64,000 nt of DNA, taken from NCBI RefSeq assembly GCF_041381155.1, contig NC_091137.1:19823655-19887654 (forward strand). The letters are read 5' to 3'. The notes beneath the pieces are model-generated. The model did not search any database, had not been told where the DNA came from, and saw only the letters and a program-made list of their open reading frames with translations. Both the position numbers and the translations under genes were made by a program. Numbering within the stretch: position 1 is the stretch's first letter; every line of letters starts with the position of its first letter. Shown here one piece after another: positions 2,031 through 42,200 of this stretch. This stretch comes from Argopecten irradians. Taxonomy: Eukaryota > Mollusca > Bivalvia > Pectinida > Pectinidae.

Positions 2031-5000
2031 TTACATGTTTCTGTACATGTTGATCCAGGTTAAGAACTTGCTGACTCTGACGTACACGCTGGGGAAACCC
2101 TCGCATGTGGTGATTCCCCAGGACGTGACTCCAGCCAACACATATTGATCGTCCACTCGGCAGACCAGTGGACCACCGGAGTCTCCCTACAACATACAGG
2201 ATACAGTGTGTATTGATGTATATAACAAACCTAATATTGGTGTTTTATAAACATGTTTGAACCGAATTTGAGTTAATCATGAGTATTTCACGAAAAACAC
2301 TAGATTGGATTGATAATTATGAGTTCATTGTTGAACTTCATCTTGTAATATCCGAACGCGCGAATCTTATTACGATATATTCAGATTTTATGACAATAGC
2401 TGTAGATGTAAGTTTTTATCAATCTTCCTGGGTGAGCCATACACAGGAAGACTTGAAACACACATGAAGACTTTATAAAAACTTCCTTCTTTATTGTGGT
2501 TATACGTACATTACATGCCGACTTTCCGACCGCCTCTATACAGATGTGAGTATCGTAAATACTGGCCCCCGATATCTGGGACCAACTCTGCTCACACTGA
2601 CCATTACTGATCACGCCCATCTGCGCCTCCATCAGGACCTCGGCTGTGCCACTATTGGCTGCAAATAGAGTCAGAAACGTTATACAATGTAAAGGACTCA
2701 ATTTCAATTTGCGAACTTAAAAAAAAATGATTAGAACGCTTACGACTGAAAATCGACACACCAAGAGAAGGATGAAAGAAGGTTTATGATTGTAAGGTCA
2801 AAATAAGGCTTACAATGAGCAACTTGAAAGAAGTCTTAAGGCTGACATGTTAAAACAAGGCATGTGATTAGCAAGAATGATTAGCTAGCCAAAAGGAGGT
2901 TACTTTGATTAGCAAACCAATAATTATCAAACCAAAAATTATCAATTCAACTTAAACATTTTATACTTGGAGGAAAGAAGAGTGTGATACCATCAGTCTT
3001 TTTCAATCCTGTGGTACCTACCGTCTGTTTTGCCCCGTTATGCGGTACCTATACCGTCTCTGTTTTGCCCCATTCTGTGACACCTTCCGTCTGTTTTGTC
3101 CCATCCCGCGACACCTACCGTCTGTTTTGTCCTGTTATATGGTACGTATACAGTTTCTGTTTTGCCCAATCCTGCGAAACCTACCGTCCTTTTCGCCCTG
3201 TCCTGTGGTATCTACCGTCAGTTTTGCCCAATCCTGTGGTATCTACCGTCAGTTTTGCCCTGTTATGTGGTACCTGCTGTCTAGTTTGTCCCGTGATGTG
3301 GTACCTGCCGTCTGTTTTGCCGCGTTATGTGGTGCCTACCGTCCTGTGATACGTACACCGTTTCTGTTTTGCCCGATTCTGTGACACCTACCGTCCTTTC
3401 TGCCCTGTCCTGTGGTACATACCGTCAGTTTTGCCCCACCCTTTGGTACTTATACCGTCTCTGTTTTGCCCCCATCCTGTGACACCTACCGTCCTTTTTG
3501 CCTCGTCCTGTGGCACCTACCATCAGTTTGGCCCCTCCTGTGACACCTACCGTCCTTTTTGCCCTGTCCTGTCGTATATACCGTCAGCTTTGCCCCGTCC
3601 TGTGGTACATTCCGTCCTTTTCGCCCTGTCCTGTGGTATCTACCGTCAGTTTTGCCCAATCCTGTGGTACCTACCGTCAGTTTTGCCCTGTTATGTGGTA
3701 CCTGCCGTCTAGTTTGCCCCGTGATGTGGTACCTGCCGTCTGTTTTGCCGCGTTATGTGGTGCCTATCGTCCTGTGATACGTACACCGTTTCTGTTTTGC
3801 CCCATTCTGTGACACCTACCGTCCTTTCTGCCCTGTCCTGTGGTACATACCGTCAGTTTTGCCCCACCCTGTGGTACTTATACCAACTCTGTTTTGCCCC
3901 CATCCTGTGACACCTACCGTCCTTTTTGCCTCGTCCTGTGGCACCTACACCATCGGTTTGACCCTCCTGTGACACCTACCGACCTTTTTGCCCTGTCCTG
4001 TGACGTACCTACCGTCCTTTTTGCCCCGTCCTGTGGTACATTCCGTCCTCTTTCGCCCTGTCCTGTGGTATCTACCGTCCTTTTTGCCCTGCCTGTGGTA
4101 CCTACCGTCTTTTTGCCCCATCCTGTGTGGTACCTACCTGCCGTCTAGTTTTGCCCCGTGATGTGGTACCTGCCGTCAGTTTTACCGTCCGTAGTACCTA
4201 CAGTCAGTTTGTGGTCCTATCGTCCTGTGATACGTATACCGTTTCTGTTTTGCCCCATTCTGTGGACCTACCTACCGTCCTTTTGCCCTGTCCTGTGGTA
4301 CCTACCGTCCTTTTTGCCCGTCCTGTGTGTACCTACCGTCAGTTTTGCCCCGTCCTGTGACACCTACCGTCCTTTTTGCCCTGTCCTGTCGTACATACCG
4401 TCAGTTTTGCCCCGTCCTGTGGTACCTACCGTCAGTTTTGCCCATCCTGTGACACCTACCGCCCTTTTTGCCTGTCTGTGGTACCTACCTCCTTTTGCCG
4501 TCTTGGACCACCGGCCTCTTTGCCCTGTCCTGTGGTACCTACCGTCCTTTTTGCCCTGCCCTGTGGTACCTACCGTCCTTTTTGCCCCATCCTGTGGTAC
4601 CTACCGTCAGTTTTGCCCCGTCCTGTGGTACCTACCGTCAGATTTAACCCGTCCTGTAGTACCTACAGTCAGTTTTTGCCCTGTCCTGTGTGGTACCTAC
4701 TGTCAGTTTTGCCCATCCTGTGTACTGTGGTACTACCGTCAGTTTTGCCCCATCCTGTGGTACCTATACCATCTCAGTTTTGCCCTGTCCTGTGGTACCT
4801 ACCGTCCTTTTTGCCCCATCCTGTGGTACCTGCCGTCAGTTTTGCCCCGTCCTGATGTACCTACCGTCAGTTTTGCCATGTCCTGTGGTACATTCCGTCA
4901 GTTTTGCCCCGTCCTGTGGTACCTAACGTCAGTTTTGCTCCGTCCTGTGGTACCTACCGGCCTCTTTACCCTGTCCTGTGGTACCTACCGTCCTTTTTGC

Positions 5001-8000
5001 CCTGTCCTGTGGTACCTACCGTCAGTTTTAGCCCGTCCTGTGGACCTACCGTCCTTTTTGCCCTGCCTGTGGTACCTACCGTCCTTTTTGCCCTGTCCTG
5101 TGGTACCTACCGTCAGTTTTGCCCCGTCCTGTGGTACCTACCGTCAGTTTTAACCCGTCCTGTAGTACCTAAAGTCAGTTTTGCCCTGTCCTTCAGTACC
5201 TACCGTCAGTTTTGCCCCGTTTTGTGGTATCTACCGTCTGTTTTGCCCTGTCCTGTGGTACCTACCGTCCTTTTTGCCCTGTCCTGTGGTACATACCGTC
5301 CTTTTTGCCCTGTCCTGTGACACCTACCGTCTATTTTGCCCTGTCCTGTGGTACCTACCGTCTATTTTGCCCTGTCCTGTGGTACCTACCGTCAGTTTTG
5401 CCCTGTCCTGTGTACCTACCTCTTTTGCCTCTTCCTGTGAACCTACCGTTTTTGCCCTGTCCTGTGGTACCTACCGTCATTTTGCCCCGTCCTGTGGTAC
5501 CTACCGTCCTTTTTGCCCTGTCCTGTGGTACCTACCGTCCTTTTTGCCCTGTCCTGTGGTACCTACCGTCTTTTTGCCCTGTCCTGTGGTACCTACCGTC
5601 TTTTTGCCCTGTCCTGTGGTACCTACCGTCCTTTTTGCCCTGTCCTGTGGTACCTACCGTCAGTTTTGCCCGTCCTGTGGTACCTACCGTCCTTTTTGCC
5701 CTGTCCTGTGGTACCTACCGTCCTTTTTTGCCCTGTCCTGTGGTACCTACCGTCAGTTTTGCCCCCATCCTGTGGTACCTACCGTCTTTTTGCCCGTCCT
5801 GTGGTACCTACCGTCAGTTTTGCCCCGTCCTGTGTACCTACCGTCCTTTTTGCCCTGTCCTGTGGTACCTACCGTCTTTTTGCCCTGTCCTGTGGTACCT
5901 ACCGTCCTGTTTTTGCCCTGTCCTGTGGTACCTACCGTCAGTTTTGCCCTGTCCTGTGGTACCTACCGTCAGTTTTGCCCTCCTGTGGTACCTACCGTCT
6001 TTTTGCCCCGTCCTGTGGTACCTACCGTCTGTTTTGCCCCTACGTCCTGTGGTACACCTACCGTCCTTTTTGCCCCGTCCTGTGCACCTACCGTCCTTTT
6101 GCCCTGTCCTGTGGTACCTACCGTCCTTTTGCCCTGTCCTGTGGTACTTATACCGTCCTTTTTTGCCCGTCCTGTGGTACCTACCGTCCTTTTTGCCCTG
6201 TCCTGTGGTACCTACCGTCAGTTTTGTCCCGTCCTGCGGTACCTACCGTCAGTTTTGCCCTGTCCTGTGGTACTAACCGTCCTTTTTGCCCTGTCCTGTG
6301 GTACCTATCGTCAGTTTTGCCCCGTCCTGTGGTACCTACCGCTTTTTTTCCCCTGTCCTGTGGTACCTACCGTCCTTTTGCCCTGTCCTGTGGTACCTAC
6401 CGTCAGTTTTTGCCCACCCTGTGGTACCTACCGTCAGTTTTGCCCGTCCTGTGGTACCTACCGTCTTTTTGCCCTGTCCTGTGGTACCTACCGTCAGTTT
6501 TGCCCCATCCTGTGGTACACCTACCGTCAGTTTTGCCCTGTCCTGTGGTACCTACCGTCTTTTGCCCGTCCTGTGGTACCTACCGTCAGTTTTGCCCTGT
6601 CCTGTGGTACCTACCGTCTTTTGCCCTGTGCCCGTCGTTGCCCTGTGGTACCTACCGTCCTTTTTGCCCGTCCTGTGGTACCTACCGTCAGTTTTGCCCC
6701 GTCCTGTGGTACCTACCGTCAGTTTTGCCCTGTCCTGTGGTACCTACCGTCAGTTTTGCCCGTCCCTGTGGTACCTACCGTCTTTTGCCCATCCTGTGGT
6801 ACCTACCGTTCTTTTTGCCCTGTCCTGTGGTACCTACCGTCCCTCAGTTTTGCCCTGTCCTGTGGTACCTACCGTCAGTTTTGCCCCGTCCTGTGGTACC
6901 TACCGTCAGTTTTGCCCTGTCCTGTGGTACCTACCGTCAGTTTTGCCCTGTCCTGTGGTACCTACCGTCAGTTTTGCCCGTCCTGTGGTACCTACCGTCC
7001 TTTTTGCCCTGTCCTGTGGTACCTACCGTCCTTTTTGCCCTGTCCTGTGGTACCTACCGTCAGTTTTGCCCGTCCTGTGGTACCTACCGTCCTTTTGCCC
7101 TGTCCTGTGGTACCTACCGTCAGTTTTGCCCGTCCTGTGGTACCTACCGTCAGTTTTTGCCCCGTCCTGTGGTACCTACCGTCCTTTTCCTGTCCTGTAC
7201 CTCCGCATTTGCCGTCCTGGGTACCTACCGTCTTTGCCCTGTCCTGTGGTACTACCGTCCTTTTTGCCCTGTCCTGTGGTACCTACCGTCATTTTGCCCT
7301 GTCCTGTGGTACCTCCGTCTTTTGCCCTGTCCGTGACTACCGTCAGTTTTGCCTGTCCCCTGTGGTACCTACCGTCCTTTTTTGCCCCGTCCTGTGGTAC
7401 CTTACCGTCGTTTTTTGCCCCTGTCCACTGTGGTACCTACCGTCTTTTGTGGTAACCTACCGTCCCATTTTGCCCTGTTCCTTTGCCCTACCCGAGACGC
7501 CCTGTATATCCTTACCTACTTTTTTCCCAGTCCTTTGGTACCTACAAACTTTTTTTCCTGTGGTACCTACCGTCCTTTTTCCCCTGTGGTACCTGTCAGG
7601 TTTGTCCAACCTACCGTTTTGCTGTTGTGCCCCGTCCTGTGGGTACCTAACCGTCAGTTTTGCCCCGTCCTTTTGTGACCTAATCCGCTACTGTTTTGTC
7701 CTGTCTCCTGTAGGTACCTACCGTTTTATAAATTTTTTGCCCTTCCCCTGGGAATCCTATGGTACCTACCGTCAGTTTTGCCTGTCCTGTGGTACCTACC
7801 GTTCTGTTTTGTCCTGTGGTAACCTACCGTCAAGTTTTGCCCCGTCCTGTGGTACCTACCGTCATTTTTGTCCTGTCCTGTCAGTACCTCCCGTTCCTTT
7901 TTGCCCGTCCTTTGGAACTACCGTTTTTGCCCTGTCCTGTGGTACCTACCGTAGTTTTGCCCTATGTAGTATCCGTTATGCCTGTCATTTTTTTGCCCTG

Positions 8001-11000
8001 TCCTTGGTCTTTTGGTCTGTGGAACGCTTTTTTTGGCCACCGTCCTTTTGCCTGTCTGTGGTACCTACCGAGTTTTGGTCCTGTGGTAAACCGTCATTTT
8101 GCCCATCCTGTGTACCTACCGTCAGTTTGCCCCAACCTGTGGTAACGTCCTTTTTGCCCTGTCCTATGGTACCTACCGTTTTTGCCCTGTCCTGTGGTAC
8201 CTACCGTCCTTTTTGCCCTGTCCTGTGGTACCTACCGTCAGTTTTGCCCTGTCTGTGGTACCTACCGTCATTTTGCCCTCCTGTGGTACCTACCGTCAGT
8301 TTTGCCCCATCCTGTGGTACAACCGTCCTTTTTGCCCTGTCCTGTGGTACCTACCGTCAGTTTGCCCCTCCTGTGTACCTACCGTCCTTTTTGCCCTGTC
8401 CTGTGGTACCTACCGTCAGTTTTGCCCCTCCTGTGGTACTACCCCTTGTACTACCGTCAGTTTTGCCCCTGTGGTACCTACCGTCAGTTTTGCCCTGTCC
8501 TGTGGTACCTACCGTCAGTTTTGTCCCCTGTCTGTGGTACCTACGTACCGTCCTTTTTGCCCTGTCCTGTGGTACTACAGTCAGTTTTGCCCTGTCTATG
8601 GTACCTACCGTCTTTTGCCCTGTCCTGTGGTACCTACCGTCAGTTTTGCCCTGTCTGTGGTACATACCGTCCTTTTTGCCCTGACCTGTGGTACCTACCG
8701 TCAGTTTTGCCCCGTCCTGTGGTACCTACCGTCAGTTTTGCCCCATCCTGTGGTACCTATACCGTCTCTGTTTTGCCCCACCCTGTGACACCTACCGTCT
8801 ATTTTGCCCTGTCCTGTGGTACCTACCGTCAGTTTTGCCCCATCCTGTGGTACCTATACCGTCAGATTTGCCCCGTCCTGTGGTACACTACCGTCTATTT
8901 TGCCCTGTCCTGTGGTACCTACCGTCAGTTTTGCCCCATCCTGTGGTACCTACCGTCAGTTTTGCCCCATCCTGTGGTACCTATACCGTCTCTGTTTTGC
9001 CCCACCCTGTGACACCTACCGTCTATTTTGCTCTGTCCTATGGTACCTACCGTCAGTTTTGCCCCATCCTATGGTACCTACCGTCAGATTTGCCCCGTCC
9101 TGATGTACCTACCGTCAGTTTTGCCCTGTCTGTGGTACATACCGCCCTTTTTGCCCTGTCCTGTGGTACCTACCGTCAGTTTTGCCCCGTCCTGTGGTAC
9201 CTACCGTCAGCTTTGCCCTATCTTGTGGTACCTATACCGTCTCTGTTTTGCCCCACCCTGTGACACCTACCGTCTATTTTGCCCTGTCCTGTGGTACCTA
9301 CCGTCTATTTTGCCCTGTCCTGTGGTACCTACCGTCAGTTTTGCCCCATCCTGTGGTACCTACCGTCAGTTTGGCCCCATCCTGTGGTACCTACCGTCAG
9401 TTTTGCCCCATCCTGTGATCCAGCAATCATTATTGCCCAGGAATCCCATGGTCGCTTCTGGCAGTTCGACAGTTTTGTGTGTTAGACTGAACGGCTGAGA
9501 CATTTTCAATATGGCGATGTCGTTGGGGAAACCAGCTCCAGCATTGTCATACTGTGAGTGCTATAACAAAATCATTGGGAAAGTAAGCCATCAAAATCCA
9601 CAACCTTAACGCGAGGGGTTAATTTACGCTAAATACGCTAATTACGCGTAGGTCACTTGATCACGAAAATTTCCCCCGCGCATAATATTTTGTAAATGTT
9701 TCAACTTCGTTGATAAAGTCTGAAAGTGTATCTATCGTGAAAATAACAACACCGCGAAAATACAAATCGCAAAAAATAAGCACTTTTTCACAAAATTTCC
9801 ACGTTTATTGCAATGTTATCGTTCTAAAACAAGAAGGCATGAATGTGTCTATATTTATGTAGATATATGACTTACCATTATGATACTAGACACCGTGATA
9901 CTCTGAGAATCGGCAGTTGAACCTTGACGATGAAGACCTGCCACAACTGTTACTGTAGATGGACTGACACAAACAAAAACAAAGAGATTACGATGATGAT
10001 CATATAAATTAATTACATGTTCTGAGTTTCTCTATTGGTACAACAGTAAGATATGGTAGGACAAAAGCCTTTAAAAGAGTTTCTTCTCAAACAATTCTCA
10101 CCAATTGTTATTTTTAAATATTTCATGATTAAGGTAAAGCCTTGTAAAATCATTCATCTAAAAGGTTTAAATGTATAATTATACGAATTGATTTGTTCAA
10201 ATTATACAATATTTTCATTAATAACAAATAACCATCGAGGAATGCTACCTTTTGTGACCACATTTTCCAATTATTTCTAACATAGATTTATCCTAATGTT
10301 ATAGTCGATTCTTAGTCAGTTTGCAGTTTTGGAAAGGGATTTATACTTGATATGAAGAATTGACGCACCTGGTTCCGTCAACACAGTGCGCAGCTGTCAA
10401 CACCATATCCGGGGCTATAAGAGAGCCACCGCAGAAGTGGGAGGGAGGAAGGAAGAAGATGGAACGTTTCTGTAACGATACCTGCCACGGCCATTTGTTG
10501 GACTCGGCCGGGACACCCCCGACAATTCGGCTACTGGGCCCCGCCCCTGTCACAAATGAGAAATATTTCATATCAATATATTTATCCCAAGAGTTTAAAC
10601 TGCACAAATGGTAAAATACAATGTATTCCTTTCCAATGCGTACTCATTTTTACTGTCACGTCGATTGCATCTTGTTCAGCGAAACAACAAAACGCTCCTG
10701 GTGGATTTGGAAACTAGTAGGTTGTAAATAAAGGGTTGTAAGTTAAAAATCTTAACAATAATCATCATTGTTATAAGATCAACAACATATTTTTATTTTT
10801 CCAATACTTAGTTTTGCTTTCAACATCGTTGAGTATTTTAATGATAAACAAATTACATGAAAACAGTCGTTCATTCACACGGAAAATGGTTTATTTTCAA
10901 AAAGGCATGGATAACAAGCCCGCCCGCTTTGATTGGTCACAAAATATATTATAAGTAATACGATCCAAAATAGTTTATTTCATCAATGAAAATAATTATT

Positions 11001-11682
11001 AATTACCCTTGCAAAATACAATATATTAATGTACCCAAGTCTTGTGGTAAAATCGTATAAAATATTTTGTCCGAAAGTTCAATATACTTACCTTAAAATA
11101 CTTGACAACAACAACATTGAAAGTTTAACAAACAAAACTGCATTTACATTTACTCACAATTTCAGTAAAGTTTTATTTATTAATTTAAAATACTGACCAA
11201 CAATCTTGTATATTCAACTGGTAGAAAAGAATACTGTGAATGAGGATATATTCGCGAACCGATATTTTCACCAAGCTAGCCCTTACATTGTTCGTGATAA
11301 TTTTTCGTGCTGTGAATATAATATAGTTAAATGTCATTCATATGCCCATGTATACACTATGTTCTCGCGTTGGTGTATTTGCGGAGATTTATGAAAGTGA
11401 CATCAGGGAAAACGAATTACCAATAAGTCACGCAATCTTCGTATAATAAAACCATTTCCCCCATTTTCAAATCGTGGAAAGTGATGGTGATTTTATGAAA
11501 GCCTGCTTAATCATATTTTTGTCATCGATTTAATTGAATCTTGAGCAACCCGTTTAGATAGGTAAGTTATACAAAAGTAATTAACTTAATAACAGTGTTA
11601 AAATTGATATACATGTAGATATAAAACACTTACCCACAAAGACTGCCACAGCAGAGAGAACAACAACAGTACTAATTAACAT
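2031..11682 (-). CDS. Secreted chymotrypsin-like serine protease (S1A), 6 exons, 258 aa
   Basis: Extracellular endopeptidase zymogen of the trypsin/chymotrypsin family. Coding exons on the minus strand: 11682-11634, 10546-10369, 9963-9876, 9551-9395, 2658-2510 and 2186-2031. All have GT/AG borders with matching phases, and the total of 777 nt is 258 codons plus TAA. Exon 1 encodes a signal peptide ([16 protein letters not shown]). A short propeptide ends in PSSR before the activation site IVGG at residue 24. The triad is visible: His70 in TAAHC, Asp116 in NDIAIL and Ser210 in GDSGGP. Ser204, six residues before the catalytic serine (chymotrypsin 189), suggests chymotrypsin- or elastase-like rather than trypsin-like cleavage. 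Gly226 of chymotrypsin appears as Ser (FPSVYVRV), and the loop is one residue short. Intron 4 (6.7 kb) is filled by a 31-bp array copied from the exon 4 donor junction. A digestive or haemolymph role is possible but not shown by sequence. Confidence 0.93.
2990..9394. repeat. Giant 31-bp minisatellite derived from an exon/5'-splice-site junction
   Basis: About 200 units of 31 bp fill most of intron 4 of the protease gene. Read on the gene's strand, each unit has 22 nt matching the 3' end of exon 4 (ACAGGATGGGGCAAAACTG then ACG) plus the first nine intron bases, GTAGGTACC. The exon itself (9395-9416) is the proximal copy, and the next unit begins 31 bp away at 9364-9385. Each unit carries GGTACC and a donor-like ACG|GTAGGT. 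The distal part (about 2990-4200) has variant units and a 428-bp higher-order repeat, and about 7150-8150 is dense in small indels. Because 31 is not a multiple of three, each plus-strand frame cycles through the same 31-residue period without stops, giving long frames (for example 5181-8684) that are not genes. On the minus strand TGA and TAG recur every 93 nt. Confidence 0.95.
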
Positions 11683-13569: not shown

Positions 13570-16500
13570 ATAGGGATAAGAATCATGCTCATTTATTGAC
13601 AGACTAACATACATACACACCATGAGATATTAGGCCAAAAAGTCCCTGTGCTTATCCCTTTGGAATATGTATGAGAGTCTGACAACAAATGAGCATTTTG
13701 TCTTCAGTATGAAAAAAAAATTGGTAGGAGATTGAATGCAAGTTTTTTTTTATACAATTGAAGTTAACCAACATTTATGATTCTAATATGTACATAGTTT
13801 GCTTATTCAATTAGATAATTATTATAGTATAACAGATTCTCAATATTCGATAAACAGTATTCAGTATCCATCCAGCCAGGATAGTTTAGAGTAAATTAGA
13901 AATAAATATTAACATATACAATAGTTTAGATGTTTAATTGCACTGCTAGATAGTATTTTGACTATCAAGTACTTAGATATGGGTACTTGTTACTTGTTAT
14001 TATTTGCTTATATATGCAGAGGGCTATATGATACATGTATATAAAATATGTTTATCAAAAATCAAATCTTTTAGTATGGCATATATATTCAATCACGCAT
14101 TGTAAAATATCTTTGTTAATATCATTATTGCAAAATTTACATCCATTTAATAGTTTTTCAATGTTTAAATGATTATGATTATCTGGTAAACCTAAGTTAT
14201 TTATTTCCTGTATAAGAACTGCTCTCTGTTCATAGAAGTGCCTACAGTCAAAGAAAAAGTGATTTGAATTTTCATTGGTATAATAGCAGGAACAGGCTGG
14301 AGAATCTCTTAAATGATCGTGATAAAGATCAGAGTTTAAATTACTTGCTTGGTTTCGTAGCTGGCACAGAATAATGTTATATTTACGGTCGCCATGATAT
14401 TTAAAAATATTAGAAATATCTGTAGTAGGAATATCATTATCAATTTTGATACTTTTTGTAAATTGTTCTAATGAATTATTAAATATGAGTTCTATATCTG
14501 TTTGATTAAATTCTCTTAGCATTGAGGGAATAAAGCTGTTGGGAGTATAATTCAGTTCTACAGAGGGGGGATTAAACAGGCGGTTATTCCTTAATGTGTA
14601 AGGAGTATTATTATTATCATTAAAGAATGGTTCAATCAAATTAGTAAGATATCTAGGGGATTCATTATTTACAATTTTAAACATTAATATTGATTGATGG
14701 AGTTTTCGTCTGAATGCAAGTGAATCAAGTCCAACTTCAGCATAAAGTTTATTATGCGATGTTCCTCGCCTCAGGCCTGTTATAATTCTTATTGTATCTA
14801 TCTGTACAGATTCTAATAAGTCTTTATCTTGTTTTGTACAATTATCCCAAATGACATCACCATATTCTAGGTCTTATAAAGGATGTATATTTTTAAATGG
14901 CTCTTTTTATCTACATTATATTTAAGTAATCTTAAAATATTTAGTCTTTTAGAGGCCTGAGTATAAATATTGTTAATATGTTTGGACCATTTACCATCAC
15001 TACTGAAAGTTACCCCCAAATGTTTATGAAATAGAACAGAGTTTACAATATCATCTGCAAATAGAATATCGTGATTGAATATATGTCTTTTTCTTGAGAA
15101 AAGTACAGTTTCTGTTTTTGAAGGATTAAAATTAATGTCCCACTTCTTTGCCCAATTATTGATATTACTTAGATCATTGGTTAGATTATCTGCAATTTCT
15201 ACATGGTTATCAGTTATTATTTCATAAAGTGAAGTATCATCAGCAAAGAGTTTAATTTTACTATTTACACATTCAGTTATGTCATTAATATATAATAAGA
15301 ATAGGAATGGCCCTAAGACAGAACCTTGTGGTACACCGGCATTGTCATTTTTAAAAGAAGATAGGAAACCCTCAGTAGATACTCTTTGTTTTCGATCAGA
15401 AAGATAATTTCGAAACCACTGTAACACTCTCCCTTTTATACCATAGGACTCTAATTTGAATAATAATCCTTCATGCCAGACTCTGTCGAAAGCTTTGCTA
15501 ATATCGCAGAATATAAATTTTATTTCATTGTTTTTATCCAAATTATGCACTATCGTATTATAAATATCTAGTAACTGGATAACTGTAGAGTCTTTAGGCA
15601 AAAATCCTGATTGGTGCTTTGTTATAATATCACACCCTTTCATATAGTTAAACATATATTTAAAAATTACTTTTTCTATTATTTTACTAAAGCATGGTGT
15701 TACAGATATTGGTCTATAATTTGAAGCATTACTCTCGAGCCCTTTTCCTTTATAAATTGCATTGATATTAGCTGTTTTCCAAGATAATGGAATAACTCCA
15801 GTTTCTAAAGTTTTATTACACAGTAGAGTAAGAGGGTGTATAAGCGAAGGAGTTAGGTGTTTAATAATTTTTGGTATCATGTTGTCTGGACCAGGAGGTT
15901 TTTTTTTCATTAAGTAAGTCAAGTTTTTTATCTTTAATATCCTGTTCTAAAATAACAATGTTATCTAATCTAAAGGGGAAGGTGTTTTCCAAAGGTGGCA
16001 ATGGATCTAAATTAGCAGATGAAGTAGATATTGAACTGAAATAGTTATTAAGACACTCTGCTTTATCCAAAGGGTGATGTATATAGTAATTATTTTCAAA
16101 TAATGGAGGCAAAGAATGTGATATATTACTCGAGTTCATAACCGATTTGGCAATTTTCCACCATTTATTTAAAGGAATTGACTGATCTTGAAGGGATTTT
16201 TTTAGTTTATCGAAATGGTTTATTTTTTCAGTTCGAATTAAATCTATGACTTCATTTCTACTTTGCCTAAAGTTTGCCCAGTCAGTCTGTAAGTTAGTAT
16301 TTCTGGCTCTTGTATGTAATCTGTTTCTTTTTCTAATTTGTTGTCTTATATTATTGGTCATCCATGGTTTATCATTTGGGCGTACAGTAATAGTTTTAGA
16401 TGGAATAAATAGATTTATTTGTTCATTTATAGTATCAGTTAAAAGCTTATTGAATTCATTAGTGTCAAGGTTTTGTGTAATTACATCCCAGTTTACATTA

Positions 16501-18999: not shown

Positions 19000-21860
19000 G
19001 GTAGTGTATCTATAGTATTAAACAATTTGATACTTGAATACTATGCTTGATCATGTTACTGATGACTCGAAACAAACAAATGTTGATATTATTATCACTG
19101 GTGACATTAATGTAAATATGCTCACCATACAGCCTAATTCCACTTTTAGTAGACTCCTCAGCAAATATAATATGACAAACTTTGTAAATGACTTTACAAG
19201 AGTAACACCTGATTCCTCTACCTCAATTGACATTGTTCTTACAAATAACAATACCATTGTTAAAAATACACATATACCACTTCCGATATGCAGTGATCCT
19301 TCTGTTATTAATTTCAGTTTTTGTCATTCTGTTTTTAAACAACATACATATGCTAAAAACATTTATCTCTATAATGAAGCGGATGTTGTCAAGATGAATC
19401 AAATGATCAATAATATTGACTGGGTAAGTATTGGTGAACACCATGATGTAGATAGTTTCAATTCCATACTTAGTGATACTATAAATAGGGTTATGAATGA
19501 ATTTATACCTCAAAAGAAAATAACTGTAAGACCTAATGACAAGCCATGGATGACAGGTGAGATTAGGCTAAAAATTAGACAGAGAAATAGAGTTCATAAA
19601 AAAGCAGTTCAAACCATTAATTCAGCTCATTGGGAAAATTTTAGAAATCTTAGAAATGAAACCATGACTTTGATTCGTAATGCAAAATCTGTATATTTGG
19701 AAAATTTAGAAAAATCTTTAAATGATATAAATACTTCTTCGTTTAAATGGTGGAAAACCGCAAAAACTCTACTTAAGTTCAATAATAAACACTCTATTAT
19801 TCCACCATTAAATTATAATAATTCTTTCTTGTTCCATCCCATAGATAAAGCCGAAGGTTTTGTTGACTATTTTACATCAATATCAACTTCTTCTGATAAT
19901 ATTGATCCTTTGCCTGCTGTCCCTGAATCTCCTAACATACTTGATAATATTTTAATTCAGGAACAGGAAGTCAGAGATCAATTAATTATAATAAATGGAA
20001 ATAAACCTGCTGGCTCTGGTGGCATAATACCTAAGGTCCTGAAACTTCTTTTATCATCAATTGTTACACCATTAACTATTTTATTCAACAAAACATTGTC
20101 AACTAGCTTTGTTCCTTCGTCTTGGAAACTTTCTAATATAAATGCTATTTATAAAGGCAAAGGTAGTGATAATGACATTTCAAATTACCGACCAATTTCA
20201 ATTACATCTTGTCTTAGTAAAATATTAGAAAAGATTATCTTCAAACATTTATATAATCATCTTGTTGAACATGAAATGGTATCGAAATTCCAATCAGGAT
20301 TTATTGGAGGAGACTCAACTATTTATCAATTACTCTCAATGTATGACACATTTATAAAAAAAATTAGATGAAGGGCTAGAAACTAGATCTATTTTTTGTA
20401 ATATTAGCAAAGCCTTTGATCGGGTTTGGCACCCCGGCTTACTTTATAAGCTTGAAATGTATGGTGTTAAAAGTAATGTCTTAAATTGGTTTTAAAGTTA
20501 TCTAGATAATCGTCAACACAGAGTTATAACTGAAGGTTTCTCCTCTTCATATCGTCAGGTAAGTGCGGGTGTCCCCCAGAGCTCAGTTCTCGGTCCTTTT
20601 CTTTTTCTAATCTATATAAATGACATAACTGATTGTATAACAAATGATAAAAGACTATTTGCAGATGATACCTCTCTTTTTAAGGTCACGGACATTTCTC
20701 CTTTAGATACAGCAAATAGTTTATCTGAGGACCCTGAAAATATAGATAAATGGTCTAAAAAATGGGATATTAAATTCAACCCAGATGATACAGAATCGCT
20801 TACTTTCAGTCGCAAAAGAAATATTATATGTCCAGATGTCTTATTCCAAAATGAGGTTATCAAAAATGTCAAAAACCACAAACATCTTGGCTTATTTCTT
20901 TCTGAGGATGGTAAATGGCACCACCATATTCACTACATTTACAAAAAAGCTTGTAATCGTATAAAACTTTTAAAAACTGTTAAATATAGATTGAGTCGAA
21001 AATCTTTAACTAATATTTATGTTTCATATATTAGACCGATATTAAAATATGGTTATATCTTGTTTGATAATTGTACACAGCAGGAAGCATTACTTCTTGA
21101 ACTATTCAAATAGAGGCTGTCCGAATTATCCCTGGACTGCGTAAGGGAACATCTCATTATAAACTTTACTCAGAACTTGGCTGGGATACACTTGCCACAA
21201 GGCGCAAAAAACATAGACTTGTCCTTCTTTATAAAAATTTTATAACTGCTCCCTCCTATCTAAACGAATTAATTGAACAATACTTTAATAATGAAAACCC
21301 ATATCTGTTAAGAAATGAAAGATTATTTGCAATTCCTTTTAGTAGATCTACCATTTATGCTAATAGTTTTATTCCAAAAACTCTGAAAGAATACAATGAA
21401 CTTGCACTTAGATTTGATTTAACCAGTATCACCTCTATTAACCAATTTAAAAAACTTCTAAGCCAGAATATTAGTGATATCACACCCACAGATAATGCCA
21501 AGTACAAAACTTTTTTAAATTCAGGCAAAAGGAAAGATAATATTTTGATATGTCAATTACGGAACTGTTGTAGTAATTTAAACTTTGATCTTTATAATGA
21601 TCACTTAGCAGAATCACCATTGTGCGAGTGTGGTAATGCATATGAAACCACTGAACATTACTTCTTCTCCTGTAGTAAATACAATTAACAGCGCAGAACT
21701 CTCCAAAATAAGTTAATAAATTTTACTTATAACCACTTTGACCTTCAAATACTTTTGTCTGGCTGTAATGATTGTAATAATGAAACAAACTTGAATATCT
21801 TTCAGTGTACACTAGATTTTGTAAGGGCTACTTATAGATTTCATAACATATAACCACCAT
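19000..21860 (+). mobile_element. 5'-truncated LINE copy, same family as the minus-strand element
   Basis: The copy starts inside the endonuclease domain (DIIITGDINVNM) and continues through the linker (RPNDKPWMTGEIR) into RT motifs SNYRPISITSC, CNISKAFDRVWHPG, GVPQSSVLGPFLF and FADDTS, then a Cys-rich C-terminal part near 21590-21670. The blocks match those of the minus-strand element along their length, so both belong to one family. It is dead: the endonuclease SDH is SDP, the RT motif VPQG is VPQS, there is a frameshift after 20369, a stop within the RT at about 20493, and further breaks near 21110. The 5' truncation is typical of target-primed integration. Confidence 0.87.
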
Positions 21861-30100: not shown

Positions 30101-30600
30101 TCCAACCAGACAATGCCCCGAAAAAGATAGATGTAGCCTTAAAGGAGATTGCTATTCTAGATTCAAATGGTCACTAAATAGGGTAAATACAAAGCTTGCT
30201 GAGGGCTTTACTGTGCAGTGCGCTTCCATTGAAAATACATTTACATTTACCTATCTTTCATATCGAATTTCACTATTTGTTGTCCTTTTAGTTCTGCATT
30301 AGTTTTTTTTTCTTTTTTTTTTTAACTTTAACTTATTTTGATCACCGCTTAATTTTCAAGAAGATAACATTGGGAAGATAATCTGTTGTTGAAAATTGCA
30401 ACCTTACGTTATGCTGAATATAAAAATTCGTTTGATTGTGCAAAACATTCAATTACCATACACTTCAGATACAGAAAAAAAATCTTTGTCTTGTCCTGTA
30501 TACGATCGCAATTTATTTTTAAAACATTCAAGATCTGACGAGGCTGAAAAAAGGAAAGAAATTAACTAGGTTGTATCAAATCAAAGTTGCAATGAAGTAT
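27123..30600. other. Region between the EF-hand and TLR genes
   Basis: The first few hundred bases should be the 3'UTR of the EF-hand gene; AATAAA occurs at 27523. A long T run lies near 27770-27796. A 122-codon minus-strand frame at 28703-29071 with several cysteines (GDCGPNESYDL, CVKCGTLTS) could be a terminal exon of an unknown minus-strand gene, with AATAAA on that strand near 28130, but no further exon was found. Before the TLR there must be a noncoding 5' exon, because an acceptor abuts its ATG. Confidence 0.4.
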
Positions 30601-30623
30601 TATATACATTTTACATTTACAGG

Positions 30624-33305
30624 ATGGCAGTACAATTTTCTGGAGCCTGGTTCGTCTCCGTGGCTTTAGTGTATGTGGTGGCAAAGGTTGAAACACATTG
30701 TGTTGATGTAGTCAACTGCTCTTGTTTCCAAGACAACGCCAATAACATAATTGCTGACTGCTCAAGAAAACAGTTGTTTTTCATTCCAAAGTTTCAAACT
30801 AATGTAACAATAATAGACCTCAGCTACAATAACATTTTCAGACTATTACCAGCCATTCACAACGGTGTAGGACTTGGTCGATCAGACGAGTCGATGAACG
30901 AAAGGAATCCATTTTTGTCCTTAACACGACTGAACGCCCTTGACCTTAGTAATAATAGACTGGAGTATACACGTGACGTGTTTCCCGCAGATGTGTTCCA
31001 GGGTCTCAAGAATCTAGAAGTGTTGAATATCCAGCAGAACAACAACTACAAAATGGACCAGAACCTCAGCTATCCAGGATGTCTCGGTCAACTCACAAAG
31101 CTAAAACGACTTGGGATCGACGGACTTGACGCTACCTTACGTATCCCGAGAACACTGCCAGCGATGTCAGCTTTGAAATCGCTAGATATGTCTGGTGAAA
31201 CAGGATTCTGTTATATGAAAGCGATCAGGTCGCAGTTTTTACGTGATGTTCCGAATCTAGAGTTTTTTAATGTTTCATCATGTGCATTGACATATATCGA
31301 AAACGGAACTTTCAAAGCGTTATCTAAACTCATATACCTTAACATATCGTACAACGATGGGTTGACGTTCGCTGTACTTCCCAATGTTACTTGTGACCTA
31401 CAGTACACAAACATCACAACACTGGACATCAGCGGACTACATTGTATGTATGGTGTGGGCACATTTCTCTTCGTCAACGACTTCAAGTGCTTACAAAATA
31501 CAAGCTTAGAAAATTTTGTGTGCAACAGTAATCGACTGGTACAGTTAGAAGACCAATTTACTTACCACTTTCCATCTACAGTGAAGTTCGTGGAAGCCCG
31601 GGACAACAGACTCACTTTCGGGATTTACGTATTGGAAATGGCGGGATTACTAAATTTAAAGCGAGGAGATTTCAGTAATCAGTACAATTCACACGATCCT
31701 TCCAAGCAAACACAACTGGATGACTGTTACGATTGGCGGGGTCCTCCAAAGGAAGGACATCTTAACTCGGTAAGCAGAACGAGAAACGTCTGGCGGAACC
31801 GGCCAAAGGATGGTCGGTCTCACTTAGTTAAAAACCAAAGATACAACTGGTGGGGCCCACCACAGGACGACCATCCATTCGTGGAAACAAGACAGGGAAA
31901 GACACGAGCGTTCACTTCTGACATTGTATATCAGAAGGTCGACAAGCCAATTCAATGGATATTTATTCCCCCGCCGAATATGACAGAATTGATATTTGAA
32001 AACGCAGATCTTGTTTATAAAATACCAAAATTGCTTATTGATGCAAACAATGATTTTCAAATGGTAAGTTTCAAAGGCAATTTCCTTCATACTTGGATTG
32101 GTCCTGTTACAAACCTGCACGCACTGGTATATCTGGATTTGTCCTACAACTACTGTTCCTACGTCAGCACTTTCTTCTTTAACCATACGCACAAGTTGCA
32201 GACACTACTCATCAGCCATAACTATCTAGGATTCATGCTGTTTGAGGACAGAGACGGCCAGACCTTTCAACACCTGGCTAACCTGGAAACCATTGATCTG
32301 TCATATAACAGGATCTCTGACCTTGGGTCAATGATATTGAAAAACCAAACCAATATGGTAACACTTAATCTGAGCTCTAACCTTTTACGACAGTTTAACG
32401 TTAAACTTGGTCACATGCAAAACCTAAAATACCTTGATTTATCAGACAACCAATTGCCGTATCTGAACCCCACAACCAGGTCAGAAATCAGCGATTTATT
32501 CACCCGAACCAATTTAAGCATTGATTTATCAAAGAATCCGTTTCAATGTTCGTGCGAGAAAAAGGATTTCCTTGGGTGGATAATGGAGAACAAAGGCTCG
32601 TTTTTGAAGTTTGAGAAGTATCAATGTTCTTTGAGCAATGGGACTGTCATGTCGTTCTGCAACCTGAGTTCTACTCTGGTCGAATTGGAGCGAAAGTGTG
32701 CTAGTTATGTTGTGCTGATTCTAGGAGTTGTATCGGCCATTGTTCTGGCCCTGTCAGTAACTATAGGTGGCCTTGTGTACCGATACAGGTGGAGGCTTCG
32801 CTATCTGTATTACATGGCCAGGAATAAATTCACACTGAAGGATCATGCAAGAGGCAAGGATAGGCTGATATATACATATGATGCCTTCATATCACATGCT
32901 GAAGAGGACTCGGAATTTGTCCTTGGCGATCTTCTTAAAAACCTGGAGGAAAATAGCCAGCTAAGTGTTTGCCTACATCAGCGAGATTTCATTGCGGGAA
33001 GGAATATAGCCGAGAACATTACAAACGCGATTCACAACAGTCGTAAAACCCTGGTAATTTTGTCCCCAGACTTTCTCCGCTCCAACTGGTGTATGTTCGA
33101 ACTCAACATAGCGCGGATGGAGGGGATATACTCAAGGGAAAACACAAACAACATATTCCTTGTGTTCTATAAACACGTGCGTCCAGAAGACATTCCTCTC
33201 CCTGTTATGGAGTTGGTCAACAGTAACACGTACTTGGAGTATCCTGGAAGTATCCATGGTGACGCTGTCTTCTGGGACAAAATGGCGCAAGCTTTGGTGG
33301 TTTGA
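30624..33305 (+). CDS. Toll-like receptor, single coding exon, 893 aa
   Basis: Innate immune receptor of the plasma or endosomal membrane. Visible parts: signal peptide (1-22); a Cys-containing N-cap (26-46); LRRs with the LxxLxLSxNxL pattern from about 60 to 635 (for example LNALDLSNNRL, LKYLDLSDNQL); a single LRRCT (about 638-692, NPFQCSCEKKDF), placing it with single-cysteine-cluster TLRs; a transmembrane helix (about 695-718); and a TIR domain (about 749-890). TIR box 1 is YDAFISH, box 2 is RDFIAGRNI and box 3 is FWDKM. The BB-loop proline typical of MyD88-using TLRs is Ala here. A charged insertion at about 365-430 with WxGPP-like repeats interrupts the LRRs. An acceptor (TTTACATTTACAG) ends one base before the ATG, so a 5'UTR intron is likely. 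A run of polyadenylation-signal repeats lies about 230 bp downstream. Confidence 0.95.
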   Translation: MAVQFSGAWFVSVALVYVVAKVETHCVDVVNCSCFQDNANNIIADCSRKQLFFIPKFQTNVTIIDLSYNNIFRLLPAIHNGVGLGRSDESMNERNPFLSLTRLNALDLSNNRLEYTRDVFPADVFQGLKNLEVLNIQQNNNYKMDQNLSYPGCLGQLTKLKRLGIDGLDATLRIPRTLPAMSALKSLDMSGETGFCYMKAIRSQFLRDVPNLEFFNVSSCALTYIENGTFKALSKLIYLNISYNDGLTFAVLPNVTCDLQYTNITTLDISGLHCMYGVGTFLFVNDFKCLQNTSLENFVCNSNRLVQLEDQFTYHFPSTVKFVEARDNRLTFGIYVLEMAGLLNLKRGDFSNQYNSHDPSKQTQLDDCYDWRGPPKEGHLNSVSRTRNVWRNRPKDGRSHLVKNQRYNWWGPPQDDHPFVETRQGKTRAFTSDIVYQKVDKPIQWIFIPPPNMTELIFENADLVYKIPKLLIDANNDFQMVSFKGNFLHTWIGPVTNLHALVYLDLSYNYCSYVSTFFFNHTHKLQTLLISHNYLGFMLFEDRDGQTFQHLANLETIDLSYNRISDLGSMILKNQTNMVTLNLSSNLLRQFNVKLGHMQNLKYLDLSDNQLPYLNPTTRSEISDLFTRTNLSIDLSKNPFQCSCEKKDFLGWIMENKGSFLKFEKYQCSLSNGTVMSFCNLSSTLVELERKCASYVVLILGVVSAIVLALSVTIGGLVYRYRWRLRYLYYMARNKFTLKDHARGKDRLIYTYDAFISHAEEDSEFVLGDLLKNLEENSQLSVCLHQRDFIAGRNIAENITNAIHNSRKTLVILSPDFLRSNWCMFELNIARMEGIYSRENTNNIFLVFYKHVRPEDIPLPVMELVNSNTYLEYPGSIHGDAVFWDKMAQALVV

Positions 33306-36238: not shown

Positions 36239-39200
36239 ATGGACGACAACAAAATAACATCGAGAAAGCAACGTCTCAGAAGAAATACACTGGTGTCTCT
36301 TGAAGATAGACATGAGCGCAAAAAACACAGAGACAGGGATCGACAGAAGTCTCGCATTTGTGTCGGTCAACAAATAGGGCGATGGATGGCTGTTAAAGTT
36401 AGCATTGGTCTTGCAAAAAATGAAGATGTTGCTAAAATGTTGCTAGATAGGTAATTTTCACTGTCAGTTTTAATGTCGACACAATTTATTTATGTATTTT
36501 GTATAAACACATACCTGTGGCGCATTTAAATATAATTAAAGGCTTTGGTGCACGTAAATGATCACAGGGCCTCGTTACTAATGATGTATATATAAGATAG
36601 GTCACGTCTGTAAGTGTAAATAGACGTGACCTATCTTTGACTTATATATATCATCATTAGTAACGAGGCACTATGCACAGATCTAGACATGATCATGTTG
36701 TGGGAAGCCTCTAATTTGCGTATTTTACGCAAATAAACTGGAGTATTATATTATAATACTCTTCAATAGGACTATGGGATTTGTTACTTAAAATAGATAA
36801 AAATGCTTATAAATGAACTTTTTACCAAATATTTTGACAAATTAGATTCATTTGCATTTCAGAAAGTATTAAAAATAGATGAAAAACTTTGAGAAAAGGT
36901 CATCAAGTTCCTAAGTAACAACAGCTTCTAGTCTTAATGCGAGTTTTTGAAAAGTATAGTAAAAGTTAAGATTTAAGCAATTTGGGCTATTTTTAGTAAC
37001 AAGTCCATACTCCAATTGGGGTACAATACTCTAGTTTGCGTATAATGCACAAGCTAGTGGATTTCCCCGACCTGATGATTATAGAATACAAATTCCTGGT
37101 GGTAGTAGAATCGCTGAAGAGACGGTCAATATAGGGAAGTGTAAAATGATATCAGCACAATCTTACAAATATATACATATAACATTATAGATCTGTATGT
37201 TCCTTTCACTTGTACAGGTGCCACAAGCCTGGTAAATGACCCCATTCCCAATGCCAAACCCCCTACTTTTTACTCAATTTAGAATTACGATGAAAAATTC
37301 CCAAATAACACAGCTGAAAACAAATAAAACTGTCAATCTCTCCCCTTGTTGTGCAATCTAAAAACAAACTACTCTGAAACTGTTGTGATATTTTACAATA
37401 TCTAATCAACTATACATGTTCATGACCCAATAAGTGCCCATGTCCCTATAAGCGCCCCTCCCCCTTTTTGAGGCCTCAATTTCAATTGCCCAGGCATGAA
37501 TAAAGACCAAACTACAGAAAACTGTATAGATTTGCAATAATTTTGTCTTATTATAAGAACCTTTTCATTTTTAAATGCTCTGGGCGATTATTGGGTCGAA
37601 TATGGTATGTTAAAATAAAAAAATGATAGAAATCATGCACATGTATATATTTTAGTACAGATCATTATTTTTCATGTACATTGTATGTTGATATTCATTA
37701 TTAACATTATTAAATCTTTTTCAGTTGGTGTTTGATCAACAGTTTCTTTGTGGACGAGCATGGTAACTTTCCCGACAAAGACTATTGTCCAGAAATCCAG
37801 AAGCCTTCTTCTCCTCATTCTGATGATGGAGAAATGTGGTATGTACCACCAATCTTCTACACAATTAGGGAGACCTGATATTAGTTCCTTTGCTAGCTGC
37901 AATATTGTAGCTCTTTGGATTTTTAGCCCACCATCATCAGATGGTGGGCTATTCAAATCCCTTTTTGTCCGTGGTCCGTCCGTCCTTCCGTCCGTCCTTC
38001 CGTCCGTCCGTCCGTTAACAATTCTTGTTATCGCTATTTCTCAGAAAGCACTGAAGGGATCTTTCTCAAATTTCATATGTAGGTTCCCCTAGGGCCCTAG
38101 TTGTGCATATTGCATTTTGGGACCAATCGGTTAACAAGATGGCCGCCAGGCAGCCATCTTGGATTTTGATACTTAAAGTTTGTTATCGCTATTTCTCAGA
38201 AAGTACTGAAGAGATCTTTCTCAAATTTCATATGTAGGTTCCCCTAGGGCCCTAGTTGTGCATATTGCATTTTGGGACCAATCGGTTAACAAGATGGCCG
38301 CCAGGCAGCCATCTTGGATTTTGATACTTAAAGTTTGTTATCGCTATTTCTCAGAAAGTACTAAAGGGATCTTTCTCAAATTTCATATGTAGGTTCCCCT
38401 AGGGCCCTAGTTGTGCATATTGCATTTTGGGACCAATCGGTTAACAAGATGGCCGCCAGGCAGCCATCTTGGATTTTAATACTTAAAGTTTGTTATCGCT
38501 ATTTCTCAGAAAGTACTAAAGGGATCTTTCTCAAATTTCATATGTAGGTTCCCCTAGGGCCCTAGTTGTGCATATTGCATTTTGGGACCAATCGGTTAAC
38601 AAGATGGCCGCCAGGCAGCCATCTTGGATTTTAATACTTAAAGTTTGTTATCGCTATTTCTCAGAAAGTACTGAAGGGATCTTTCTCAAATTTCATATGT
38701 AGGTTCCCCTAGGGCCCTAGTTGTGCATAATGCGTTTTTGGATCGATCGGTCAACAAAATGGCCACCAGGCAGCCATCTTGGATTTTGATAGTTAAAGAT
38801 TAATATCGCTATTTCTCACAAAGTACTGAAGGGATCTTTCTCATATTTCATATGTAGGTTATGCCCTGAGTGATTTTTCGAGAACAGCAGTGACAACCAT
38901 TAACAGACACATAGGGGACCGAGATTTCGTACCAGGCCTGAAATGTATAGTAGGCCAGGTACTGGTTCTACCAATATATATTCGTTCTATTCCTTTGCTT
39001 GCATTCGGAAATATAGTCTGATGAGTAATGTCAAATACAGTAAACGTCTCAAATAAATACGGTGATCCAAGATATGTTTGTTAAAATATATTTATTATGC
39101 GCTTTCCTCATGAACAAAGAGACATTAGACTATGATGGTATATACATTTGTGCATGCCTAGATAAGGCCATTAGCAATAATGATTGTTGGATTAAAGGAG

Positions 39201-42200
39201 ATAAGAAAAGGGGCGTTTTATGCATGCTTTTGACGAAAATTACTAAATAGTATGTATTTATGACACAAGGCAAAAATGGATTAATGGCTTTCTCATGAAC
39301 AAAGAGACATTAGAGACTATTTGGTATATATACATGTGCATGCCTGATAGGCCTTTAGCATAATGATTGTTGGATAAAGGAATAAAAAGGCGTTTTATGG
39401 CATGCTTTTGACAAAATTACTAAATAGTATTATTTAGACACAAGGCAAAAGGATTATAATGCAATTGATTTCTAAAAAAAATATTAATTTGTCCGTAGTT
39501 AACCTTTCAGGATTCTGATAGTATTGGTTTGATAGTCATACTCTAAGTCAGTTCAAAAGTTGGCTATATAGAGTATGATCCTTGTTGGATGGTGTTGTAT
39601 TTTCTATGAAATGGACTGATAATTATGATCTGAATTACAAGGTATGAAATATACTCATTAGGCCTTGTGTCATGTATTTTCAGAAATCATACCATATGTT
39701 ATATATAAGACACATTGATATGTTACAGCTCCAAAACAATTTCACCATCGGTGGAAAAGACATCAGAATCGCAAAACATTACTGATAGTAGTCAAACTGC
39801 GAAGGACGTGGCAAGTGACTTTGTTATGATTGGTGTAGATGACTTGAGGCGGAAGACTGCAGAAGCTGAGGGAACTACAGACAGGTTATCCAATGTCAAG
39901 AACTCAGATGATCTATTACAAAGTGAGGGGTCAACTCATATAGAAGAGAATTTAGCTACCAAGGTGATAAAGTGTGAGCCCGATACCCATATGTACTTAG
40001 AGACGGAAAGGCATGGAGTAGCAGGTGGGGTAGCATCCTTTAGTGTGGATAGAGAGACAGAGCGACAGGAAATGGCAGGTGAGGATACATTAGAGGCAGA
40101 GAGACAGGGAGTGACAGGTGAGGCTACATCCTACAGAGTGGATAGAGAGACAGAGCGACAGGAAATGGCAGGTGAGGATACATTAGAGACAGAGAGACAG
40201 GGAGTGACAGGTGAGGCTACATCCTACAGAGTGGATAGAGAGACAGAGCGACAGGAAATGGCAGGTGAGGATACATTAGAGACAGAGAGACAGGGAGTGA
40301 CAGGTGAGGCTACATCCTACAGAGTGGATAGAGAGACAGAGCGACAGGAAATGGCAGGTGAGGATACATTAGAGACAGAGAGACAGGGACTGACAGGTGA
40401 GGCTACATCCTATGGTGTAGATATGAACTGTGAGGGGGAAGAATCTGACTCGGGGAATGATATGTCAGATATACCATATCATGGAAATGAAGATGAGTCT
40501 GTGGTTCATTATCAATCAATGACTTTGGAGGACAATGATGTGGTGCTAGATCTGAGCTGTAGTGAAGAGGACGGTGATAGCAACAAGTTAAACCCACATA
40601 CGTACACGTCAGACAATACCAATCTACAGCAAAGTCAAATGATCCCCTCCAAAAAACGAAAAGGAAGGAAAATGTCTACTCCAAAGTGTAAGGAGAAAGG
40701 TGCCATAAAAAGGAAACATACTTCCAGTCCGATCTACCGTCAGAGTCGGAGGTTACAGAAGAAAGGCCGTCGATCCTACATAGACGACCTAAAAGAAACC
40801 ATTGATGCAGAGGAGGATAAAGAGGTTAGTATAATATTTTAGTGGGGATTTATGGGGGTTATTAATATCTGATTTCTATTGTAAAGGGGAAGTGAGTTTA
40901 TATCATGGTGTGACACCCGTCATCACGTTGTTATATCTATACATGTAGGTTATCAGGCATAGGGCATCAACTTTTGCATAAGGGCACCAGGAAGAATTCA
41001 CAGTCTGGCTTGGTTGTGAGAGGGATATATACTGGGGCAAACTTGTTACTGCTAGCTTCCATCATTATAAAATGACTTCTTTTCAATAAAAAAATGTTCA
41101 TGAGACCTGATATTTTGCCTTTGACATGCTAAAATAAAGGCCTACCTAGTTTGCTTTAATTTTAAAATGATGTTAACCTTCATTCAAAAGCACAGGTGTT
41201 AAATAAGTAAATGACATCTTCTCAAATACCAAGAGGCTCAAGAGAACTGATATGGTACTGGACCTAAAGCATTTAATATGTGAGAAATACATACCCTTTT
41301 GGCCCTTGTGGAATTTTTCAATTATCTTATTAGTATATAATTGACCTGCTCTTTCATCATTTGGGAACTCTTTCTATCAAAAAGCTAACAAAAATTGATG
41401 TTGTAATAAGTACTCACTTATTATATGTTTTAGAGTTGGCCAGTTGATGAGAGTCTTCAGAGCCAGGAGAAGTTACAGTATAACTACACTAATGTTCACC
41501 CCAAAAAACGACACACTGCAAGATTCTCACAGACCAATACTTGTGTTATCCCTTTAGAGACAGTAGAAAATCCTTCTCAAAATAAAAAAGGTCACAGGGT
41601 AAGGGCAACAGTTCAAGGTAAAGGAGATCATACAGGGGTGCCTGAGGTACCGGCTGCCAGTTCCGATGTCTTCAGTGAACTACAGGACAATGATGAGACT
41701 GAAGAAGTTGATTTAGAATCAGACTTTTTGTCAGAACCTGATCCCTCTGATTCAGATTATGATCCAAATGTAGATGTACAGGTAACACCACCTAGGAAAA
41801 AGCGAAAATATACAAAGCGCAAAAAGGGAGGAAAGGAGAAACTGTCAGATGATGGAGAATGTGTAGAGGAAAATGATGATGGATTAGAGGGTAGGAAAAA
41901 ATCTGTCAAAAAGACACGAACCAAGCGGAAATCTCGCGCAAAAGGAGAAAAATTGAACTGTTTACCTGGAAGCAGACGTTCTGATAAGTACTTCCCAGAT
42001 ATCAATGTTCAGTTGGAGGACCACAAAGATAAATATGAAATCACCACATGGACAAGTCACTGTAAGAAAGATCGGGGTGTGGATGTGGAGCAGCGGTCGT
42101 TCCATGGGTACGGTTGTAAGTTGTGTGGAGGAGTGTTTAAAACCACAGACCGGGCAGTGATGGAGGTACATCTCAAGGAACACATGCAGGGCAAATTAAC

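Follow-up and report, generated by a model that had tools for sequence, protein, structure and literature searches.

A minisatellite of some 6.4 kb, made up of about 208 units with a 31-bp consensus, fills most of the 6.7-kb intron 4 of an S1A protease gene in Argopecten irradians. The tandem repeats span the exon 4–intron 4 boundary, which is the defining property of the arrays known as mirages, and the GT of the true donor lies inside the first unit with further units extending into the intron, as in the human ABCA7 repeat. By its anatomy the array is of a known kind; its likeness to arrays in lancelet genes and in human ABCA7, F7 and IFI6 is drawn from their descriptions, and we do not claim homology. 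The window analysed is a 64,000-nucleotide stretch of contig NC_091137.1, and all coordinates are given within it.

The protease gene lies on the minus strand, running from 11682 to 2031, and its six exons join into a single open reading frame of 261 amino acids; its five introns are each bounded by GT and AG. Exon 1, the coding part of which (11634–11682) supplies the start codon and a hydrophobic N-terminus, is followed by exon 2 (10369–10546), bearing the IVGG start of the protease domain and the TAAHC motif, exon 3 (9876–9963) and the 166-nt exon 4 (9395–9560). Intron 4 (2659–9394, 6736 nt) comprises the array, about 350 nt of non-repeat sequence and the acceptor, ...TATTTGCAG; beyond it lie exon 5 (2510–2658) and exon 6 (2031–2186), which extends from GDSGG through the stop codon. 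The S1A (trypsin/chymotrypsin-like) class of the product is evident from the presence of both the TAAHC and the GDSGG motifs and from a match to Pfam Trypsin (PF00089, E=9.6e-60) that covers the whole of the Pfam model (1–220 of 220). The best solved relatives among the matches listed for the protein are plasminogen catalytic domains, in which the aligned counterpart of the GWGKT segment encoded by the end of exon 4 is GWGET. A tblastn search of the window with the protease protein returned its own exons, fragments of the array and weak matches only. One candidate paralogue at 39170–39199 (E 1.1; a 19-nt DNA match with E 0.008) lies inside an unrelated tandem repeat and was dismissed as a chance match.

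Tandem Repeats Finder places the array at 3007–9417. When the sequence was aligned in wraparound fashion to a 31-nt unit, 211 rows covering 9466–2988 resulted, and removal of two flank rows before 9417 and of a weak last row (3013–2988) left 208 units running on the minus strand from 9417 to 3014, with the consensus CACAGGACAGGGCAAAACTGACGGTAGGTAC. Unit 1 (9387–9417) joins the last 23 nt of exon 4 (9417–9395) to the opening 8 nt of intron 4, which begin with the true donor GTAGGTAC, and units 2 and 3 directly adjoin it without a gap. The alignment thus bears out the sequence-only reading in its central points, that the unit joins the end of exon 4 to the start of intron 4, that the exon end is itself unit 1 and that the copies behind it continue in phase. 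Its split of the unit into 22 and 9 nt describes the same unit shifted by one base from the 23+8 division found here. The range that it assigned, 2990–9551, contains a real array, but the upper limit takes in most of exon 4, of which only the last 23 nt are repeated. That every 31-bp unit is a copy of the junction holds in the sense that 208 units can be aligned, but lengths vary, with exactly 31 nt in 95 of the 211 rows, and the exon 31-mer is matched exactly by just eight of the 208 units, unit 1 and seven others. The array consensus has also lost the Trp codon: it differs from the exon copy at two positions, both in that codon, where TG is kept in 24/208 units and the consensus has CA. Most of the variation among units is carried by four columns (8, 9, 18 and 19), which define shared subtypes.

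The base composition of the array, at 53.5% GC, stands apart from the 37.1% of the window. The hexamers AATAAA and ATTAAA are absent from the array because of the sequence of the unit. On the plus strand, opposite to the gene, a stop-free stretch of 1172 codons extends over 5166–8681; among 50 dinucleotide shuffles none exceeded 647 codons (mean 312). This stretch arises because the 31-nt unit has no stops in that direction, and it is no evidence of a gene.

Several further features were recorded in the window. Downstream of the protease gene, at 1155–1376, lies a 32-bp minisatellite of 6.8 copies with a consensus unrelated to that of the intron 4 array, and a long array of a 19-bp unit, in about 80 copies, occupies 49998–51886. 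Tandem repeats of 93 and 45 bp lie inside open frames at 39997–40412 and 61155–61306, respectively; their unit lengths are multiples of three, so they are probably protein repeats, and the frames that hold them have no match in Pfam. Two copies of a 177-bp repeat were found at 39101–39450, the second of which lacks single bases in several places and looks like consensus error or decay. A 911-codon frame (stop to stop) at 30570–33302 on the plus strand encodes leucine-rich repeats and a TIR domain, of Toll-like receptor type. LINE-like reverse transcriptase frames lie at 14870–15946 on the minus strand, above the Pfam cut-off, and at 19031–20368 on the plus strand, just below it. Intron-bearing genes, the Toll-like frame and these reverse transcriptases give the window a eukaryotic character.

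The true donor reads ACG/GTAGGTAC, the stroke marking the exon end. In the aligned columns its GT is kept in 186 of the 208 units and GTAGGT in 155, so that the units carry splice signals, as those of mirages do, and the proposal of roughly 200 tandem donor-like sites is upheld. Of the 428 GT sites further along the array, 130 equal or surpass the true donor in pairing with the 5′ end of U1. Shuffling the array with dinucleotides preserved (n=50) leaves 13.1 such sites on average and 20 at most, and the remaining 57,391 bases of the window contain five on the minus strand and 18 on the plus strand. When donors at the exon end and at +31, +62, +93 and +124 were tried, only the exon end kept the frame into exon 5. 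With one to four units added to exon 4, a stop follows residue 169 each time, as the sequence-only reading had anticipated for the first decoys, and this predicted stop lies upstream of the exon encoding GDSGG. Regular splicing of the host gene would accord with the open frame, which the exon-end donor alone provides among the five tried.

Could RNA structure hide the decoys? In a local folding model, the chance of being unpaired is 0.0014 for the true donor against a median of 0.0060 for 52 decoys between 9393 and 7000, six of which are as closed as the true donor or more so. The start of the array (221 nt) folds no better than its shuffles, of which 95 among 200 do as well (z −0.07). The true donor is thus not predicted to be more open than the decoys, and concealment of the decoys by structure was rejected. 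Neither the donor sequence nor the predicted structure marks the true donor, so order or exon context would remain as the distinguishing feature.

Conservation of the donor columns was compared with that of the rest of the unit, leaving out the four subtype columns. Substitutions number 76/1872 in the nine donor columns and 174/3744 in the 18 others (p=0.34); when deletions are also counted, the figures are 113 and 275, respectively (p=0.07). The donor stretch has the fewest changes (113) of the 31 circular nine-column windows, in a comparison that includes the subtype columns, and this could hint at constraint. Overall, there is no clear selection on the decoys, with some doubt attaching to this conclusion.

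The farther a unit lies from the exon, the greater its substitution distance to the exon unit tends to be (rho 0.30, p 1e-5): the value is 0.081 for the first 26 units and 0.1725 for the last 26, or 0.033 and 0.124 when the subtype columns are omitted. The increase is not monotonic: without the subtype columns, it is units 79–130 that are closest to the exon unit (0.010 and 0.007). The middle of the array is the most uniform part and the distal end the most diverged, the pattern of turnover associated with mirages. Units resemble one another most at lags of 14 units in the distal part (0.873, the median being 0.783) and of 15 units among the first 40 (0.930 compared with 0.898). These lags and distances are consistent with the turnover of a minisatellite whose distal edge is old. 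The exon end has to be the older part, given that the segment it encodes can be aligned with those of other S1A proteases. The middle blocks are nearer to the exon unit than is the exon-proximal block, so the array may, at most, have grown from the exon end.

Arrays of comparable construction have been described, and the view of the sequence-only reading that none was known cannot be maintained: five papers describe boundary-spanning repeats in lancelets and in human ABCA7, F7 and IFI6 (PMC3087553, PMC3902484, PMC5954066, PMC6627357, PMC4526556). The mirages of lancelets are there presented as minisatellite-like tandem duplications across an exon–intron boundary, with many copies bearing splice signals; they occur in Adh3 and the globin genes BflGb6 and BflGb9, have unstable lengths and reportedly leave regular splicing undisturbed (PMC3087553). 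The units of the Adh3 mirage are given as 10–72 bp. Further mirages, again with regular splicing, are reported in PGBD5 and TnC (PMC3902484). The protease array shares with them the boundary-spanning tandem units with splice signals, and differs in copy number, about 208 units against the three and six stated for BflGb6 (PMC3087553).

In human ABCA7, the intron 18 VNTR has a 25-bp unit in about 12–427 copies, reaching 10.7 kb, and lies directly behind the exon, starting with the GT of the exon 18 donor; retention of one unit, which is no multiple of three, leads to an early stop, and the account given associates longer VNTRs with more exon 19 skipping and lower expression, the share of unit retention being unchanged (PMC5954066). 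The protease array resembles it in having the true donor in the first unit, a unit length that is no multiple of three and a predicted early stop on retention. The ABCA7 VNTR is described as starting at the GT, whereas 23 of the 31 nt of the protease unit are exonic. Intron 7 of human F7 contains 37-bp repeats in variable number, with the true donor in the first repeat, and the most upstream 5′ splice site is reported as the only one normally used (PMC6627357). These donor-bearing repeats, with the true donor in the first, are thus arranged as in the protease array, the unit being 37 bp against a 31-bp consensus here. F7 is a gene of the same protease class as the host gene; its repeats sit in another intron of the fold, in alleles with few units. 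In the human IFI6 (6-16) minisatellite, the repeat units act as splice donors, and two downstream units are stated to be really used, giving three mRNAs (PMC4526556). This sets IFI6 apart from the protease array, in which we infer use of the 5′-most donor. The accessible portions of PMC3778950 and PMC2423196 contain nothing on such repeats, and PMC2572611 merely cites the IFI6 paper.

We consider it quite probable that the array is of the mirage type, is removed with the intron through the 5′-most donor and is largely neutral. The exon 4–intron 4 junction of the S1A protease gene would have been duplicated in tandem, with slippage or unequal exchange then spreading further copies into the intron. 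In keeping with such an origin, exon 4 shares an exact match of 23 nt with its own intron 4, where the longest match of mononucleotide-shuffled exon 4 is 12 nt or less (n=100) and those of the five other exons are 7–11 nt; among 12 exon ends, start and stop ends included, only the exon 4 end is repeated within 3 kb over more than 11 nt. The spliceosome would take the 5′-most donor, in line with the account of the human F7 repeats, and the array would then be removed as ordinary intron. Small amounts of a one-unit-extended transcript with an early stop might be produced, as in ABCA7.

Of the other explanations, the insertion or expansion of an unrelated satellite beside the exon, with the match to the exon end secondary, is barely plausible, even in a window rich in other tandem arrays. 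The exonic part of the unit codes for a segment that aligns with other S1A proteases. Outside the array, the window holds no match to the unit longer than 10 nt, which answers, within the window, the worry that the resemblance to the exon is coincidental. A search with an exact 19-nt pattern from the unit returned 0 matches from each of viral_contigs and genome_contigs, a result of little weight as these are viral and prokaryote contigs. Rfam gave 0 matches in the window. It is unlikely, too, that copy number or unit variants are in part an artefact of assembly, a shorter or cleaner array having been spoiled by long-read consensus errors. An indel-rich block on the minus strand at 7455–7941 (units 49–64) has about 4.9 indel bases per unit, many of them single-base, compared with 0.56–2.94 in the 12 other blocks, and may represent real decay or consensus errors; the second copy of the unrelated repeat, at 39288–39450, is likewise short of single bases present in the first. 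Units near the exon are clean, however, and random errors would not be expected to produce subtypes common to many units or block repeats that extend over thousands of bases.

The remaining two explanations give the decoys a function. That they form a regulatory ladder, on which use of a downstream donor leads to the stop after residue 169 and so to decay or an inactive truncated protease, with array length tuning output, we regard as distinctly unlikely. Such a role is in keeping with the uniform early stop, upstream of the GDSGG exon, on extension by one to four units, and with ABCA7, for which a one-unit-retention isoform, an increase in PTC transcripts with cycloheximide and lower expression with longer arrays are described (PMC5954066). 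The same source nevertheless reports unit retention to be constant across array lengths (PMC5954066), lancelet mirages are reported not to disturb splicing (PMC3087553) and the donor columns here have no clear excess of conservation. Strong donor-like sites occur in the array at about 20 per kb in a single orientation, and it is conceivable, if highly unlikely, that the array is a landing strip along which U1 is loaded over the 6.4-kb intron, the first of some 130 equal donors being picked by order. If so, the speed of splicing or the output of protease would be tuned by array length, and nature would have provided at this locus a very large test of 5′-most donor choice. The suggestion that the array acts as a sink for U1 or regulates protease output finds no support so far, in that the donor columns are not clearly better kept and no fold marks the true donor.

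The protease minisatellite, probably a largely neutral array of the mirage type, is a long, natural, high-copy case of a known kind that is useful for the testing of donor choice. If it is spliced as expected, one donor is chosen among about 130 further sites of equal or better match to U1, and with a copy number far above that of the lancelet globin example, the gene lends itself well to testing, outside mammals, whether the ‘first donor wins’. Donor arrays of this kind can also mislead gene prediction. Variable repeats at exon–intron boundaries may, according to PMC2812944, give rise to new introns, and the array adds a case for the idea, put forward for the mirages of lancelets, that introns change with duplicated boundaries as their raw material.
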